Assembly (NCBI GenBank): GCA_921293015.1
Contig: OV121087.1
Location: 6,832,501 to 6,896,500 of the forward strand
Length of the DNA: 64,000 nucleotides
From: Phorcus lineatus
Taxonomy: Eukaryota; Mollusca; Gastropoda; Trochida; Trochidae
Reading direction: 5' to 3'
This document shows, one piece after another, positions 28,690-60,460 of the stretch (position 1 is the stretch's first letter; every line of letters begins with the position of its first letter). Made by a program: the position numbers and the translations under genes. Under the pieces are notes generated by a model that saw only the letters and a program-made list of their open reading frames with translations, was not told where the DNA came from and did not search any database.

Positions 28690-29986
28690 ATGAACAGCAA
28701 GCAGCACTCTACGATCGGGTTGTCCCCGGTCGTGAACGGTGGGGGTCTCCCCACGGGCCGCTACTCACCCCCTTACAGACCCCCGGAACGTATGAGATGT
28801 ATGTCCAGTACCTCGGTATGTACCTGTGTCCGTCCACTCGCCACACTGCCGGCTTCTAATCACCTTTATTAGCAATTCAAAGCCTTCCCGTCGGTATCGC
28901 TCTCATTATTTGCCATGTTTCATATTTTATGAAGTGAGTTTATCTTTGCGAAAGGAAACGTGACGTGACCATTTAGCAGCGTCGGGTTTCCCCAGCGGCT
29001 CGAAGAGTAGGTATTATTGATGTTGACTTTCCGTTAGGCGACAACTTGATACATTGGATTTTTTCTTGTGTTTGCAGGGCAACTTCTTTGGAGGGTTGGA
29101 CGACGGATTGCTGGCAAGGGCAGAGGCTTTGGCCGCCGTAGACATTCCAAAATGTCCCTCAGCCCAGTTGATGAAGTCGGATGGACTGTACGGCCACACC
29201 CCCGACATCGCACCCCACCAAGTGGCCTCATCCCGACCCCAGATGACTATGCACGCTCACACCTCGCCCTTCGGTCCGGGGGACTCGATGCTGGACCAAC
29301 TGACCGGCAACCCCCCGGGGATGACCCTCGGACCCGTGTCCATGCCGGAACACCACCACCACAACAACCACATGGTGACGAGTCACTCCCACTCCCATCA
29401 GATGTACCCCCCTGTGTACACCCACCCAAACACCATGAACACCCACCCCGGTCTCTCCTCCCATCACGCCGCCATGCACCACCCCGTGCACGACACGGAC
29501 TGTGACCCCCGGGAACTCGAGGCATTCGCCGAGCGCTTCAAACAGAGGAGGATAAAGCTGGGGGTGACACAGGCTGATGTGGGTTCGGCCCTGGCCAACC
29601 TCAAGATCCCGGGGGTGGGCTGTCTGAGCCAGAGTACGATCTGCAGGTTCGAATCCCTCACCCTGAGCCACAATAACATGATAGCCCTGAAGCCCATTCT
29701 ACAGGCATGGCTCGAGGAAGCGGAGAAGGCAGCCCGTGAAAGGAAAGCTGAGGGAGACATGATGGGCGCCGCAGACAAGAAGAGGAAACGTACTTCCATA
29801 GCCGCACCCGAGAAGCGATCATTAGAGGCCTATTTTGCCGTTCAACCCAGACCATCTGGGGAAAAAATTGCACAAATTGCTGAAAAGTTAGATTTGAAGA
29901 AAAACGTTGTTCGTGTGTGGTTTTGTAACCAGAGACAGAAACAGAAAAGGATGAAGTTTTCTGCTGGGGGACTAGTTCACCACTAA
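28690..29986 (+). CDS. POU4: POU class 4 (Brn-3/acj6/UNC-86 type) homeodomain transcription factor, two coding exons joined 28690-28815 and 29078-29986
   Basis: Spliced product is 344 aa, within the usual size range of the family. Exon 1 (42 codons) starts MNSKQ, like vertebrate POU4F proteins, and carries GRYSPPYR..ERMRCM, the first half of the POU-IV box. Exon 2 continues with GNFFGGLDDGLLARAEALAAVDI. A His-rich linker occupies roughly residues 131-180. The POU-specific domain spans about 181-260 (ELEAFAERFKQRRIKLGVTQ; LSQSTICRFESLTLSHNNM). The KKRKRTSI linker leads into the homeodomain (about 276-335) with recognition helix RVWFCNQRQKQKR, including the POU-type Cys at homeodomain position 50. 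The protein ends MKFSAGGLVHH, then TAA. By family knowledge it is a nuclear DNA-binding regulator of sensory and other neuron identity. The start is the only in-frame ATG before the POU-IV box; the upstream in-frame codon at 28624 is GTG. GC-rich codon use contrasts with the AT-rich flanks. Class assignment is near certain; species is not. Confidence 0.97.
28816..29077 (+). other. POU4 intron 1 (phase 0)
   Basis: The 262 bp intron begins GTATGT directly after the codon for Ser42 and ends TTTGCAG before Gly43 (GNFFGG). Both consensus sites are clear and the reading frame resumes exactly in the POU-IV box. The intron interrupts the POU-IV box just before the stretch ending LLARAEALAAVD, a position that resembles the first intron of vertebrate POU4F genes as I remember it. 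The frame of exon 2 stays open 8 codons into the intron; those residues (MDFFLCLQ) are not part of the protein. Confidence 0.93.
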
Positions 29987-52777: not shown

Positions 52778-53038
52778 TTAAAGGCACTAGTACACATCCA
52801 TATTTTGTAAATAAAACAAAAGCACAGATAATACATATCTCTCTATATTAGCAAGAACCCGCACTTAGGTAATCCACCAAGTAAATGATTTGGAAAATAT
52901 TTGCGTATTGAGTTTGAAACGTTGATTATAAAAAGACTGGAAGTATTTAATGGTCTACGTTATCAGCAAATTAAAATAATTGCATACCACCTGCGGCAAC
53001 CGCAGTAGTTAATATAACGACAATGCATATACTATATA
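52778..53038. mobile_element. Left part of a TTAA-flanked MITE (same family as 41869-42467)
   Basis: Begins TTAA-AGGCACTAGTACACAT and aligns over its length with the first part of the MITE at 41869. It breaks off exactly at the GA microsatellite that forms the 3' end of the large LINE, so the LINE probably inserted here. A candidate right part ends at 58510. Confidence 0.6.
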
Positions 53039-53199
53039 GAGAGAGAGAGAGAGAGAATTGTTTATTTAAGTGTCAACATTTATACATACATACACTCACA
53101 TGGACATTAACATATTTAAAAGTATAACATACGGCCAAATGTGACCTATGAGACACGATCGACAGACATTTACAATCTAAAAATCAATATTAAGAAATG

Positions 53200-53590
53200 C
53201 ATTGTTAACGTTATACATACATACGTACACACACACATACAACGATAGTAACATACAGGCATGTGTCAATAAAAGTCATTGTACATACGTGATACATACA
53301 TGCACATACATTCCGACGTACAAACATACATACACACACATACATACATACACGCACGCATGCACACCCATGTGCACACATACATACATACATACATGCG
53401 TACGTACGTACGTACGTACATACATACGTACGTACATACATACATACATACATACATACATACACACATACATACACATATACATACATACAGACAGACA
53501 GACAGACAGACATACATACATACATACACACCCAAACAAATATACACCCGTGCACTTACATGCATATAAATACATACATTCATACATGCA
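53200..53590. repeat. Long TACA/TACG tetranucleotide array in the LINE 3' UTR
   Basis: Nearly 400 bp of (TACA)n, (CGTA)n and (GACA)n variants. It creates overlapping low-complexity frames on both strands (Tyr/Ile/His/Thr or Cys/Val/Met/Tyr) that are not genes. It lies between the ORF2 stop and the LINE tail, so it is part of, or expanded within, the element. Confidence 0.95.
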
Positions 53591-53659
53591 CCAAATGTAC
53601 ACAAAAATAACACACAATTTATATATAAATATTAAGTTAATAGCATTGAAGTAAAAATG

Positions 53660-56600
53660 TCAAACAAATGTTTTTCTTCTTAAGAACATATTAAGTATCA
53701 TTTTTGATATATTAAAATTCATGTGTTGCATAAGGTATATCAATTTGCTGCTAGGGTCCATATATGCAAATTCCGACACTTCCTCAGATAATTGAGAGAA
53801 AAGTTCATACCTTATGTCACTGTACAGAGGACAACTTATGACAAAGTGTTTCTCATCTTCTACATTGTTTGTGACCCAGAGTTTACAGTAACGTTCATCA
53901 GCTGGGATTGGAGGGGAGCTGAATCTGCCCGTTTCTAAGGCTAGTTTGAGAGATCCACACCTTAGAGACGCAACAATTGATCTGTGTGGTCGTGGGAGAG
54001 TTACATAGGGTTCCGTGCAAAAATCATGTTTGAACAACCTATATGTCCTTAGTTTTGGTAGACTATTAACTTCATTTTTCCAGTTCACTTTGTCAGTGTT
54101 TAGAAGATTTTCTTTAATTTTGTTGATTATCCAGTATGTTCCATGTATTGAATCTGTCAGTATATCACTAAGGTTATAATCCTCGAATATCTTCACAACC
54201 TTCCTTTCCCATGATTTTCCTCTGAGTTTAGACCACTGGTGAATAGACTTATTTACTCTATTCACCTCCATTCGCTCAAGCCTACACCACAAGCGGGCAA
54301 CCTCAGTGTAGACCTTGTACTGGGGGTGGAGCCACCCCATATCCCCCTGCACTGCCGAATTAGCTGAATTTTTGTTGACACCAAGGAATAGCCTGCATGC
54401 TCTGTTCTGAATCACATACATTTCCTTATATTTATTCACACCCCAGATCCCAGAGCAGTAGGACAGAACAGGGTACACAATATGATCATATAACTGGGTA
54501 AACACTCGGTAATCCATGTCACCTGACCGGTAGTACTTATCCATCACAAAGCCAAGCGCTCGAGATGCTGACTTGATGAGTTGTTTCACTGCATACCGTA
54601 GATCACAATATTCGGTAAACCAAAGGCCTAAGTATCTGTAGCAACTTGTATATTCCAATTCTTGTTCTCCAATATTAAACTTTATACCACTTTGCTTAAC
54701 AGATGCAGGTCTAAAATGTATCACTTTTGTTTTTGTCATGTTAATGCGTAATCTCCATTTTAGTGTCCAGTTGTGGAATATATCTAACAGATGTTGTAGA
54801 GAGTTTTCATCTGGGGACAATATCACAATATCGTCTGCATAGAGCAACACTGATATACTTGTATCATTATCTATGTTTATACCACAGTCAGCCTTCTTCA
54901 GCTCTTCGGCCAGATCATTTATATAAATTGCAAATAAAGTGGGTGACAGTTTGCATCCTTGCTTCACACCTGCAGTAACAGCAAATGATTCGGTGTGTAA
55001 ATAGTTCAGTTTGACATCACATGTAACATCTTCATATAAAGAGCGGATAGCATGAATCATCTTACCACTAACGCCACATCCCAGCAATTTAAACCAAAGG
55101 AGATCTCTATTGATGGAGTCGAATGCTTTAGAGAAATCAACGAAGCATGCGAAAGTCTGCTTTCTGCTGTTTTTCCTGTTGTTAACGAGGCTATAGAGAC
55201 TATGGACATGGTCAACACACGCACGTTTGCTGCGGAATCCGTTTTGTTCGTCCACAAGAATGTTGTTATTTTCAAGATAAGTTGTAAGTCTAGTATTGAG
55301 GACATCGGCATAGATTTTGGAGCAAACTGATAAAAGAGTTATGGGTCGATAGTTCAGTGGGTCCCTTACATCATTTCCGTCAGTTGAGTTCTTTGGAATA
55401 GGTTTGATAGTTCCATGGTTCCACACATTTGGCACAGTCCCTGATTCAAATGATTTGTGAATAAGCATTGTTAATAGTTCTACACATACTTCATTACGAA
55501 GCACTTCAGCAGGGATGTTGTCAGGACCACAAGCTTTTCCAAGTTTACATCTAAAAATGGCATTTCTAACTTCTTCTTTGCTAACAGGTCGATTTAGGGT
55601 GGGGCTTGATGTATTTTCGTTGTTTATATGTTGATCGTCATAGAGTTGACTACGTATGAACTCTAGGTGGTCAGAGTCGTACTGTTCATCGCAGTGTAGA
55701 CCAGAGTATAAGTTAGAATAAGCCTCTCTCCATTTACCTAGAACTGTATCGGTGTCTCTTATCATTTCTCCATCTTCATTTAATACTTCCAAAGGTATGA
55801 CTTGTGTTCGGTTATTTGCTGACCCAATTCTGCCTATCTTTTTCCAAAAGTCACAGTTATTTTCCATTAAAGTTGTAGTTAGTTCATATTTTTTCTGCTG
55901 TTGGTAGAGCCGCTTAGATTTTCTTAGGATCCTATTGAATTCTTTTCTATGGTGACAGAACTGGCTTTTCAGGGTTCGTTTGGTTTGTGGGTTTTTGCAC
56001 TGGAGCCAGTTTTTCTCTTTTTCACATAAGACATTGAAGCTATCAGTTAGTTGAGACGTCCAATATGGTTTGGTTTTACATCGTTTTGATTTCAGAGAAC
56101 AGTGCCCAGTGGCTGATGATAGGGGTCTTAGCTTTTCTTCCATCTCGGACTCAAGCAAATTATTCAGGTGGCCATAAGCTTCATCTAAGTTGTTAACTTC
56201 TAACGCTTTAGTCATATCCTTCATTGTACTGTTCACTTTTGTCCAGAGTCTGTCAGTGTTATCATCTAAAAAGTCAATAGGTACTGATTTAAAGTCATAT
56301 TTTCGTCCATTTGATTGCAGAGTGTTCTTAGACTCACATGACACTGAAGATGAGTCCAGCTTAATACTCCACTCAATGACTCCATGGTCTGGTATCTTGT
56401 CACTAGTTGGTATGTCAAATTCCTGAATTAGCTTAGTCAACCTGTGAACTTTAAAGTCTTGACAAAATTGTAACTGTTCATAGGGCACAGCGACGTAATC
56501 AACAACTGACTGTCCCCTGTATGACACATGAGTGTAGTCATTAACACCTAGTCTGCCATTAAGCATACACATGTTGCTATCTGTTAGGAAGTCTATAAAA

Positions 56601-57175
56601 TAATCACCATGTTTATTCTCAGTTTCGTCAATCACTTCTCTGGGGCATATGTCATCAACACTAGCAATAAAATCATCATTATATCCGCAGCGAGCGTTAA
56701 AGTCCCCACATATATAATGCAAGCCTTGACTTTGATATCGACATTCCTGATCATGTAGAACTTGGAAAAACTTTTCGGCATCATTTGAACGGGACGATCC
56801 ACATGGTGGAAGATAGCCGACACACACACAAAATATGTCGTTCTTGTTTTTACGTGACGTGAATCTCACCCATAAAATGTCTTCTACACTGTCATCAAGG
56901 ACATCATAATCATAGTATTCAAGTAGTGATTTCTTGACAAACATACCGACACCACCAGAGCCCCTTTTGGCATTTTTATGTAGGCTTTTTCTGTTGTGCC
57001 CGATCCAGATAAAAGAATCCGATACAAAAAGCTGGTTATCATTTGTTAAAAATGTTTCACATATACAAGTTACATCAAAGTTAAGGTTGTCAACAATTGA
57101 TTTTCTGAAGTCCGAATTGTCATTAGCTTTATTTGACCACCCTCCCACATTCCACAAGCCTATTCGGGCACGTCC
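53660..57175 (-). CDS. LINE ORF2: APE endonuclease and reverse transcriptase
   Basis: The open frame begins at the codon after the ORF1 UAG (GGA at 57175) and ends at TGA 53660-53662, about 1171 codons. Counting from TTG at 57157 as residue 1: endonuclease motifs WNVGG (2-6), CETFL (33-37), GDFNAR (151-156), SVVDY (217-221) and PDHGV (256-260); RT motifs GPDNIPAEVL (544-553), NYRPITLLS (602-610), FVDFSKAFD (672-680), VKQGCKLSP (731-739) and LLYADDIVIL (771-780) with the catalytic YADD; and a C-terminal Cys/His segment (RYCKLWVTN..VEDEKHFVISCP). Such proteins nick target DNA and prime reverse transcription there. No AUG precedes the endonuclease N motif; the first Met is residue 72. Confidence 0.92.
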   Translation of the reverse strand, partial: GRARIGLWNVGGWSNKANDNSDFRKSIVDNLNFDVTCICETFLTNDNQLFVSDSFIWIGHNRKSLHKNAKRGSGGVGMFVKKSLLEYYDYDVLDDSVEDILWVRFTSRKNKNDIFCVCVGYLPPCGSSRSNDAEKFFQVLHDQECRYQSQGLHYICGDFNARCGYNDDFIASVDDICPREVIDETENKHGDYFIDFLTDSNMCMLNGRLGVNDYTHVSYRGQSVVDYVAVPYEQLQFCQDFKVHRLTKLIQEFDIPTSDKIPDHGVIEWSIKLDSSSVSCESKNTLQSNGRKYDFKSVPIDFLDDNTDRLWTKVNSTMKDMTKALEVNNLDEAYGHLNNLLESEMEEKLRPLSSATGHCSLKSKRCKTKPYWTSQLTDSFNVLCEKEKNWLQCKNPQTKRTLKSQFCHHRKEFNRILRKSKRLYQQQKKYELTTTLMENNCDFWKKIGRIGSANNRTQVIPLEVLNEDGEMIRDTDTVLGKWREAYSNLYSGLHCDEQYDSDHLEFIRSQLYDDQHINNENTSSPTLNRPVSKEEVRNAIFRCKLGKACGPDNIPAEVLRNEVCVELLTMLIHKSFESGTVPNVWNHGTIKPIPKNSTDGNDVRDPLNYRPITLLSVCSKIYADVLNTRLTTYLENNNILVDEQNGFRSKRACVDHVHSLYSLVNNRKNSRKQTFACFVDFSKAFDSINRDLLWFKLLGCGVSGKMIHAIRSLYEDVTCDVKLNYLHTESFAVTAGVKQGCKLSPTLFAIYINDLAEELKKADCGINIDNDTSISVLLYADDIVILSPDENSLQHLLDIFHNWTLKWRLRINMTKTKVIHFRPASVKQSGIKFNIGEQELEYTSCYRYLGLWFTEYCDLRYAVKQLIKSASRALGFVMDKYYRSGDMDYRVFTQLYDHIVYPVLSYCSGIWGVNKYKEMYVIQNRACRLFLGVNKNSANSAVQGDMGWLHPQYKVYTEVARLWCRLERMEVNRVNKSIHQWSKLRGKSWERKVVKIFEDYNLSDILTDSIHGTYWIINKIKENLLNTDKVNWKNEVNSLPKLRTYRLFKHDFCTEPYVTLPRPHRSIVASLRCGSLKLALETGRFSSPPIPADERYCKLWVTNNVEDEKHFVISCPLYSDIRYELFSQLSEEVSEFAYMDPSSKLIYLMQHMNFNISKMILNMFLRRKTFV

Positions 57176-58096
57176 CTAGTTAGAATTTTGCTTATTATGA
57201 CTCCTGTCTCTTCTCACTAATCTTCCTGATTTGAACATAAGTGTCTCGTGCTTCCCAACCTCCTTCAGTAGCATTCTCATATTGGACTCTGATCTCCTCA
57301 CATCATATGGAATATCGTTTTCAATGTATATATTGCTGTACTGATTGTGCGACATGAGGTTCTTCTTGGCTTTTAAGACACTTATTTTCATTTCTACTGT
57401 TTCTGTGGTAGCTATGACGATACCAGGGTATTTCCCTTTACTTTCTTTCCGTTCTACTTTAGTAACGGAGAGATCCTTAAGTTTCAAACCATCCCTGATA
57501 AGTGAAAGCACTTTATTCTTTGTGAGGGTAGGATTTGACTTTTCCTGTTTGTCTTCTGGTAGATTTTTCACAACGAAATTACATTCGCGTGAGTTATTCG
57601 TAACTGCTTGTCCACTGTTTACTACTTCAGCATATGAAGATTTCATTTCATCTATCTTCTTATCCAACTCTGCATATTGTGTGTTAAATTCACTCCTTAG
57701 ATTCTCTATTTCTGTCTTTATGCAATTACTCAGTCTGTTCTCAATAATAGTGTCTATTCTCACAGCAAGCCTGTCTTCTAACGACACATTCATATCACTG
57801 ATGCGTTTGTTTACTGCACCGAACATAGTGTGTACATCGCGAGTGAGATTAAAGATCATGTCTTTTAAGTCTGTTATTTCCAAGTTATTCTGAGTTTGTA
57901 TTTGAGTACCTGAGGTAGGAGTTGGATTCCGTTGTGATTCTCGTTCGTCGGACGTGTTTGTGTCTGCCGCCATGACACCCGCTTCGGCGAGCTGACCTGG
58001 ATCCGTGTGCGGTGATTGATCTTCTTTTAACTTCTTCTCTTGGTTGTTCCCGCTTTCTGGGCTCAGATTTCGCTTCCTTGAGCAACCCTGCGACAT
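57176..58096 (-). CDS. LINE ORF1 protein (coiled coil plus RNA-binding domain)
   Basis: 306 aa from an ATG at 58096 to UAG at 57176-57178. The N-terminus is basic (KRNLSPES..KKLKED), followed by a Thr/Asn-rich segment, a long predicted coiled coil at about residues 72-160 and a probable RRM-like/C-terminal RNA-binding region from about 172 (ECNFVVKNLPEDK) through KYPGIVIATT and IYIENDIPYDVRRSESNMRMLLKEV. This layout matches ORF1 proteins of L1/transposase-22-like type found in many animal LINEs; by family knowledge they trimerise and coat the element RNA as a nucleic-acid chaperone. No disabling mutation is seen. The stop is followed in the same frame, with no further stop, by ORF2. Confidence 0.85.
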   Translation of the reverse strand: MSQGCSRKRNLSPESGNNQEKKLKEDQSPHTDPGQLAEAGVMAADTNTSDERESQRNPTPTSGTQIQTQNNLEITDLKDMIFNLTRDVHTMFGAVNKRISDMNVSLEDRLAVRIDTIIENRLSNCIKTEIENLRSEFNTQYAELDKKIDEMKSSYAEVVNSGQAVTNNSRECNFVVKNLPEDKQEKSNPTLTKNKVLSLIRDGLKLKDLSVTKVERKESKGKYPGIVIATTETVEMKISVLKAKKNLMSHNQYSNIYIENDIPYDVRRSESNMRMLLKEVGKHETLMFKSGRLVRRDRSHNKQNSN

Positions 58097-58272
58097 CGTG
58101 TCAGCTTTGTGTATTAATAGAATGTAAGTAAGTACAATATTTCACTAAAAATTGTTCAATTTTCACAGCAGCCAAATTTCACAGCTGATCGTCAGTCAGG
58201 TCACATAAGTAATGGGTAAAGTTACAAATATATCTATAAGGAATAATTCGTCTTTTGTCCTCCGTAAAGAAA

Positions 58273-58510
58273 TTAAAGGCACTCCAGCTCGCTTTTTCGT
58301 TTCAGATTGGTTACTTTATTGCACATGATGACATAGGTACTCACTTTAGCTTCGATGCTATCAATGCAATGAAATATTTGTTATTCTTTAAATCTAAGCT
58401 GTAATCAACTATGAAAATGTTTAGCCGGCCGCAGTCAGCTTAGAGATATAAAACATCTATGGCCAGCTGTGCACAACATAGAATAAATAAATGTACGCTA
58501 GTGCCTTTAA
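58273..58510. mobile_element. TTAA-flanked MITE end or short MITE (238 bp)
   Basis: Begins TTAA-AGGCACTCCAGC (58273) and ends GTACGCTAGTGCCT-TTAA (58510), so its ends are inverted over AGGCACT with TTAA on both sides. Two readings are possible: a short independent MITE, or the right part of the MITE that starts at 52778 and was split by the LINE. The right terminus (TTAAAGGCACTAGCGTACAT on the minus strand) matches the 52778 left terminus better than 58273 does, which supports the split model. Confidence 0.5.
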
Positions 58511-58800
58511 GATTGACATGGTCTCATCTTGATTCATTAGTGTATTAAATATTTAAGATTGACATGGTCCACCCTTGATTCATTAGTGTATCAAATACTT
58601 GTGTACGCTAGTGCCTTTAAGATTGACATGGTCTCATCTTGATTCATTAGTGACTTAAATACCTGTGTACGCTAGTGCCTTTAAGATTGACATGGGCTTA
58701 TCTTGATTCATTAGTGTATCAAATACGTGTGTACGCTAGTGCCTTTAAGATCGACATGGTCTACCCTAATTCATATGTATATATGATATTTTAAGATTGA
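58491..58800. repeat. ~64-bp tandem array built from the MITE end
   Basis: About five units, each with GTGTACGCTAGTGCCTTTAA, then GATTGACATGG, then TTGATTCATTAGTGTAT. Terminus copies start at about 58493, 58601, 58665 and 58729; one unit near 58550 lacks the terminus (46 bp), and the last is decayed. Confidence 0.85.
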
Positions 58801-60460
58801 CATGATCACATTAAGGAAATAGAGTCATAGAGTCAACTTAATTACCTAATCACTAATCCAAACTAAGTCCCAAACCTTTTTATAAAAGAAATCCCATAAA
58901 TTCCATTTTCAGTAACATAGAACAACTGGCAAATAGGAATGAATTCACACGTAATTTCTATGTTTAGAAACGTCATCTGAGCAAAATCTTGAGCAGATAC
59001 CAGTTAAAGAACCATGAAAAGTCAAATGAAATTACATGAGCGATAAATAAGATCGACGTGTTAGCCCAATGAAGATCAAAGCGGTACAAACAGATGTCTC
59101 CCCTAGCTGATGCCTTACATTAACACGCTTTAAAGAAATTCTTCTTCATTGTAGAGTGATCCAACTGAACGGGCTGGATAGCGCAGCGTTCGGCTTCGGA
59201 TCAAGAGGTTCGTGGTTCGAATCCCGCCAAGGGCTTGGCAACTTTGTCAGCATTAGAGAACTGTTCTACACGCAGTTAGCTTTGGGTGCAATGCTACATT
59301 GAGTTCCAGCGCAGTACAACCCAAGGTTTGCTAGTTCCAGGCGATGCTCGCAGGTTTCATCGCAATGCAAAATCACGAAGGCGTTGCCGGCTTTTTCACT
59401 GCAATAATACTAGCAGCTTTGATAGAAGTGAAATTCTCTTGAAAGCGACTTGAAACCCCAAATCACTTCCACTTCACATGTGGCAAACCAGTTTGTATTT
59501 TAATAGGTTTCTTTGGTTACAAAACCTTTGAACGGAGAACCGAAGCATTTGTTTCAATAATAGTTGACCGTTATTTTCGTGTTAACCAATTATATGTCAC
59601 AAATAAAAAAGGAAATGCTAAAAGGATGTCATACACACTACTCATTTACTATATTTTTTTCTGAATGATCCAAATATTTTTAATTTACTGATTTACGGAT
59701 AAAATCCGACTTTTCAAAAACAACGTTAAACAAGATGTCCAATTGGATTTGACGTTATATGAGATATTATTCACAAGTTCGTTAATATGACAATATTTTT
59801 ACTACTTATCATCGTATAATAAAAATCCATTCAATGATTCTCTTCGTTAAGTCAAATTAAGATATCCAAGTAACAAAAAATATATGCTATATGAAATGTA
59901 AATTCGGATATCGATGTTACTATTCTCTTCAGTAAGCTTCATTTTCATGTCTGACCTATATTTCTTTATTTTGGAATACCTACATGCTTTCCAGTTACAG
60001 CAAATAATGAACAATTAGATGGTCTCTTAAAATTATTCTCAAAATATGTAAATGTTTCTCAAAAGGCTTTACATACAAGAGACACGATACTCATTACAAC
60101 AATAAGGGCCATCTAAACATTTCATACTTAATAACAACAAACTAATACTTTCATATTGAACATTGGAATTGTTCTGAACGGTAATATTTCATATTCAGTT
60201 GATATAAGGGATATGATATCAGCATATTAATACCTCAACATTGAGAATAGCAGTGGACCTATTGTAATACATTGCTGTTACAAGCAAGCTTGCAAAGAAA
60301 GAAATTAGATTTTTATTAACTTCGTTGTCTAGATCTTAACCGTATATCAGCAATCATTTCCTCAAATAAAGTCAACAGTTTACCATTACAAGCCTCAACT
60401 AACCACACGAAATCGAAATGATAAAGAAGAAGGCGTCCATGTCCAAGTCATAGTCTCATA
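58800..60460. other. Gene-free stretch around a tRNA-like element
   Basis: AT-rich apart from 59160-59460, which holds the tRNA-like element and its GC-richer body. No protein gene recognised. Confidence 0.5.
59171..59450 (+). mobile_element. tRNA-derived SINE-like element
   Basis: A Pol III A-box-like TAGCGCAGCG (about 59179) and an exact consensus B-box GGTTCGAATCC (about 59214-59224) are spaced as in a tRNA gene. Stem pairing is too poor, and the distance from the 5' GGGCTGG to the CCCGCC end too short, for a functional tRNA. About 220 bp of GC-richer body follows, as in a SINE, but no clear tail repeat is seen. The alternative is a decayed tRNA pseudogene. Confidence 0.5.

Follow-up and report, generated by a model that had tools for sequence, protein, structure and literature searches.

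Type III stop codon readthrough sites generally consist of a UAG codon, a 3' G or a purine-rich octanucleotide and a 3' RNA structure of one kind or another, and they are used, among others, for the expression of the gammaretroviral reverse transcriptase (PMC3542737). The contexts listed in Table 5 of that paper are UAG-G for Gammaretrovirus, UAG-GGR for Tombusviridae and UAG-R for Epsilonretrovirus, and 3' structures are described there as common, but not ubiquitous, at readthrough sites. In the LINE SART1, reinitiation at an overlapping stop-restart site has been reported, and translation of ORF2 depends on ribosomes arriving from ORF1; for LINE-1, in which a spacer of 63 nt separates ORF1 from an ORF2 with its own AUG, an unconventional reinitiation of ORF2 has been proposed (both according to PMC5972666). 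A literature search on readthrough in the expression of LINE ORF2, with Repbase outside its scope, retrieved one similar proposal, namely for the Group 3 LINEs of Paramecium tetraurelia, in which ORF1 and ORF2 are located in the same frame; as presented in PMC5405496, this case rests on consensus sequences.

The LINE described here lies on the minus strand of the window, i.e., the whole stretch of 64,000 nucleotides of Phorcus lineatus DNA that was analysed, and comprises about 5.17 kb (53038..58204). Its limits were taken from the ends of its genomic copies: the 5' end is at 58204, and the 3' end lies within a (TC)n tail (53038..53056), which is closely preceded by an AATAAA (53066-53061). 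A tandem repeat of about 64 bp with 3.3 copies and additional degenerate ones is found upstream at 58506-58811; since the copies start at 58204, this repeat is located outside of the element. A 5' UTR of 108 nt (58097..58204), reaching from the common 5' end of the copies to the ATG of ORF1 at 58096, is followed by the open reading frame of ORF1 (306 amino acids, 57179..58096), a single UAG (57176..57178) with GGA behind it, which is the candidate readthrough codon, and the frame of ORF2 (1171 amino acids, 53663..57175), which ends with a TGA (53660..53662). The reading of the sequence thus bore out the claim of the original prediction that both ORFs share one frame and are separated by one UAG. 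On the minus strand, the junction reads AAT TCT AAC UAG GGA CGT GCC CGA ATA GGC TTG TGG AAT GTG. Sequences of the same base compositions should contain 81.3 stop codons over the length of ORF2 and 19.5 over that of ORF1, so that the open frames are not a product of chance.

ORF2 contains an APE-type endonuclease domain (Pfam Exo_endo_phos, amino acids 8-167, 56675..57154, E = 4.2e-07) and a reverse transcriptase domain (Pfam RVT_1, amino acids 593-851, 54623..55399, E = 2.2e-40), whose best sequence matches in the PDB are 8c8j, an RNA-directed DNA polymerase, and LINE-1 ORF2p entries. This order of domains is that of an APE-type LINE, as are the dispersed copies, some of which are 5' truncated, and the simple repeat at the 3' end. 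The endonuclease starts almost directly at the stop codon: the Pfam match begins at ORF2 residue 8, which corresponds to profile position 3, and only seven ORF2 codons lie between the UAG and the W-N pair. Asn9 of this pair (57149..57151) and Glu40 of the motif CETF (57056..57058) are invariant in an alignment of eight rows (A5), and by analogy with APE endonucleases, we take them to be the catalytic Asn and Glu. The first in-frame Met codon of ORF2 (56942..56944) is found downstream of both residues, as had been anticipated, although it encodes residue 78 and not a residue near 72; six out-of-frame AUGs precede it. An AlphaFold model of the endonuclease made from the single sequence had a mean pLDDT of 36.1 and gave no usable structure. 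ORF1 contains, as judged by eye, a coiled-coil-like stretch followed by a C-terminal region, which is conserved between lineages; searches of Pfam and the PDB with ORF1, including this region, returned weak matches below the threshold only. A first idea that the C-terminal region might be LINE-1-like was therefore left as unproven. The element resembles LINE-1 in having an ORF1 and an ORF2 with endonuclease and reverse transcriptase; however, the inter-ORF spacer and the ORF2 AUG of LINE-1 (PMC5972666) are replaced here by one in-frame UAG without a spacer.

A search with 501 nt around the junction against the genome of origin (958 Mb, 74 contigs) revealed copies with nearly 100% identity in at least eight places, including the window. 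Six of these eight copies (five of the seven besides the window) share the exact 5' end at 58204, two are 5' truncated, and the matches of the seven other copies end between 53036 and 53046. Small gaps aside, each of the five other full-length copies aligns colinearly with the window. It had been proposed to check whether the TAG is conserved with constraint on both sides. TAG is present at the junction in 8/8 copies found, and ORF2 is free of stops in all seven other copies. In ORF2, the comparison of these seven copies with the window gives 51 nonsynonymous and 45 synonymous differences (approximately 2785 and 728 sites, respectively), and five copies carry nine nonsynonymous and seven synonymous differences in ORF1 (728 and 190 sites); these totals are sums over the comparisons, in which differences that are shared or private to the window are counted more than once. 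Judged from these sequence differences, the reading frames on both sides of the UAG look constrained, as under purifying selection. The element is young and probably recently active.

More distant relatives were collected by searching the same genome at the protein level with residues 1-278 of ORF2, which yielded 139 matches with 41-100% identity, scored from 1243 candidates. The junction was read in 50 of the 139 matches of this one genome, i.e., the 30 best ones and a further 20, and an in-frame TAG directly before the endonuclease was found in 48 of the 48 readable junctions. In 47 of these loci, the TAG closes the frame that lies upstream of the endonuclease, and 41 of the 47 have at least 57 open same-frame codons above it, out of about 60 that the short stretches allow. 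The locus L078 has the TAG at the junction likewise, plus a later stop, and two loci (L031 and L036) lack a junction owing to a missing or rearranged 5' part. Neither a sense codon at this position in most copies nor a frame-shifted ORF2 with its own AUG, which the original prediction had named as findings that would speak against it, was seen among the 50 of 139 loci that were read. Clustering of the 47 junction loci at 85% nucleotide identity resulted in 19 groups, which are counted as 18 lineages since L090 combines the ORF2 side of L079 with another upstream part. The endonucleases of the 11 lineages with a full domain share 43 to 66% identity. In a tree of the 18 lineages, the end branches are long, with a median of 0.48 changes per column, and the tree is poorly resolved, with three of 15 inner branches being well supported. 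The genome harbours no fewer than 18 lineages of one LINE clade side by side; many of them have ORF2 frames of 1155-1182 amino acids, present in several near-identical copies, a picture that suggests many recently active families.

Across these lineages, the stop codon and the base behind it are less variable than the neighbouring codons of the linker. The junction stop is TAG in 18/18 lineages, the following base (+4) is G in 16 of them, and +5 is a purine in 17. In 16 of the 18 lineages, the linker starts with Gly, Asp or Glu, while codon 2 varies freely, which suggests a constraint on the bases rather than on the residue. The fixation of the TAG was judged against controls. Among 57 endonuclease columns with an invariant amino acid (11 lineages; Met and Trp left out), a single one has kept the same codon everywhere; dS was beyond estimation in all seven between-lineage pairs that were tried; and in the five lineages whose ORF2 is complete, the longest copies terminate ORF2 with TGA, TAA, TAA, TAA and TAG. 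A shorter copy, L056 (1120 amino acids), ends in TGA and its sister L057 in TAA. Since invariant columns change their codons, dS is too high to be estimated and terminal stops vary, the fixed TAG at the junction cannot be attributed to inertia, and it looks as if selection acts on UAG-GR as nucleotides. Upstream of the stop, A is found at position -2 in 14 and at position -1 in nine of the 18 lineages. PMC3542737 notes from tests in yeast that readthrough is stimulated by adenosines at the two positions preceding the stop, and the A-rich positions of the LINE junctions would fit this effect.

With its UAG and the 3'-adjacent G or purine-rich sequence, the junction corresponds to the type III class of PMC3542737, in agreement with the original prediction that UAG-GGA resembles known readthrough contexts. 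The likeness to viral type III sites extends to the shared frame and, in the case of the retroviruses, to a downstream ORF that holds the reverse transcriptase (PMC3542737); the differences are that the host is a non-LTR element and that no shared local 3' pseudoknot or stem-loop was found. We consider it probable that the locus represents an APE-type LINE that was active recently and belongs to a large clade, and that programmed readthrough of its conserved UAG yields ORF2 in the form of an ORF1-ORF2 fusion. Of the options that had been put forward initially, readthrough is favoured because the UAG (18/18) and the next G (16/18) are conserved while the neighbouring linker codons vary. Most ribosomes would stop at the UAG, so that mainly ORF1 protein is made; a minority would read the UAG by means of a near-cognate tRNA and go on to translate the endonuclease-reverse transcriptase, thereby producing a small and fixed amount of fusion protein, similar to Gag and Gag-Pol. 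The occurrence and rate of readthrough, the residue that would be inserted at the UAG and a possible cleavage of the fusion all belong to the predicted part of this model, which is deduced from sequence. If the model is true, readthrough would set the ratio of ORF1 to ORF2, and an ORF1-ORF2 fusion protein would be expected. The retention of UAG-G over a long divergence would make this a natural and easily tested example of a Gag-Pol-like strategy in non-LTR elements, and it bears on the question of how ORF2 is translated when a LINE RNA carries two ORFs.

The idea of readthrough in a LINE has a ciliate precedent; added here are the animal clade, the fixed UAG, which is mostly followed by G, and its conservation over many lineages. 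Paramecium uses another genetic code, and its Group 3 LINEs form a ciliate clade of their own, whereas the elements studied here belong to an animal clade with the UAG in 18/18 lineages; the two are set apart by their descriptions.

Folding of the RNA 3' of the stop, which had been suggested as a further check, did not add support. Single-sequence folds of 80 nt gave z-scores between -2.36 and +1.21 in 17 of the 18 lineages, with fold energies like those of shuffled sequences in 16 of the 17, the exception being L042 (z = -2.36); for the window, a fold of 120 nt had a z-score of +1.71. RNAalifold found zero pairs in an alignment of the 18 lineages anchored at the stop, and zero pairs in the shuffles as well, so that this test had little power. 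In a home-made pseudoknot scan, the lineages L037 and L079 stood out weakly, with no more than 3 of 60 shuffles attaining the observed score; in the other 16 lineages, 6 to 60 of 60 shuffles did so. Hence, no shared local 3' RNA structure was found with nested folds, RNAalifold and this crude scan, which have limited power and cover local pairing only. If readthrough takes place, its signal would seemingly act without the usual local 3' RNA structure. With less confidence, but still as the version we lean towards, we propose that this animal LINE clade expresses its polymerase in a gammaretrovirus-like manner, as a UAG-readthrough fusion without a 3' pseudoknot, that another stimulator is used and that ORF2 co-assembles into the ribonucleoprotein via its ORF1 part. 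Candidates for the stimulator would be the short UAG-GR context itself, the nascent ORF1 protein with its basic end, an RNA element at a distance or an action of the ORF1 protein on termination.

The main rival explanation is termination-reinitiation, by which ribosomes would stop at the UAG and restart nearby at a non-AUG codon to produce a free ORF2, either with the help of a calicivirus-type TURBS or in a LINE-1-like manner. It keeps this position because a near-cognate start codon is present at codon 3 in 11 of the 18 lineages and because, according to PMC5972666, calicivirus reinitiation tolerates changes of the start codon; the reinitiation proposed for LINE-1 ORF2 in the same paper points in the same direction. 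In SART1, stop and restart overlap (PMC5972666), whereas no AUG overlaps or adjoins the stop of the element described here. An in-frame AUG before the catalytic Asn occurs in one of 18 lineages, L046, in which it is ORF2 codon 2; its sister L077 has GTG at this position. Upstream of the catalytic Asn, five of the 18 lineages even lack any near-cognate start, and all lineages have no start position in common, which weakens the option of non-AUG reinitiation raised at the outset, even with the near-cognate codons at codon 3. A UGGGA resembling the core of TURBS motif 1 is located at 57257-57253 (minus strand), 79 nt upstream of the UAG; however, this is a weak hint, as 5.8% of the positions of the element have such a UGGGA 40-90 nt upstream by chance, and the 110 nt that end with the stop have an unremarkable fold (z = 0.08). 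Moreover, reinitiation provides no reason for the use of UAG over UAA or UGA, nor for the G at +4, in 18 lineages. Overall, we regard reinitiation as improbable compared with readthrough.

Two further rivals place the conserved UAG in RNA processing. If UAG/G were a 3' splice site, the removal of an intron would join ORF1 or a leader to ORF2, and UAG/G indeed fits YAG/G, the consensus of 3' splice acceptors. However, a pyrimidine tract is missing, with the 18 nt upstream leaning to A, and an equally good CAG acceptor is present in 0/48 readable junctions. Reverse transcription in cis would furthermore leave spliced copies in the genome, and the five other full-length copies have the same colinear structure as the window, which makes splicing very unlikely. 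Slightly less credible still is an ADAR-type A-to-I editing, by which UAG would become UIG (Trp) in part of the transcripts, as is the case in hepatitis delta virus. Editing to Trp could keep the UAG conserved, and a precedent is mentioned in PMC3542737, but edited RNA that is copied back would leave TGG, which was seen in 0/48 readable junctions, and no shared local pairing was found around the stop.

A private nonsense mutation in a single-ORF element, one of the options considered originally, or a private loss of the ORF2 start codon, for which codon 5 (ATA) is one base away from ATG, is refuted for the nonsense case and hardly tenable altogether, given the same layout in 8/8 copies found and 18/18 lineages and given that 4/686 one-step nonsense opportunities fall within -10 to +5 codons of the stop.

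Searches were also extended beyond the genome of origin. No relative was found in scans of viral contigs, and phages gave one weak reverse transcriptase match. Among other genome contigs, one scan found none, and another, with a LINE reverse transcriptase pattern, found five contigs filed as bacterial MAGs (L002-L006). When tested pooled with the eight own copies, reverse transcriptase matches with 23-31% identity and E-values down to 6e-60 were obtained, the locus not being specified; some of the five contigs may be eukaryotic contamination. Plasmids contributed 19 records, for most of which the annotation names a group II intron or another bacterial reverse transcriptase, plus an apparent eukaryotic clone, L001 (8001-9533). 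This record (NZ_CP104070.1), filed as an Alicyclobacillus plasmid, contains a LINE-like reverse transcriptase next to a cat gene and an IncFIA replicon, and has the appearance of eukaryotic DNA cloned into a BAC-type vector. Elsewhere in the window, an open frame of 319 amino acids, which presumably encodes a POU class 4 homeodomain transcription factor and would thus identify the host as an animal, was noticed by eye at 29027-29986 on the plus strand.
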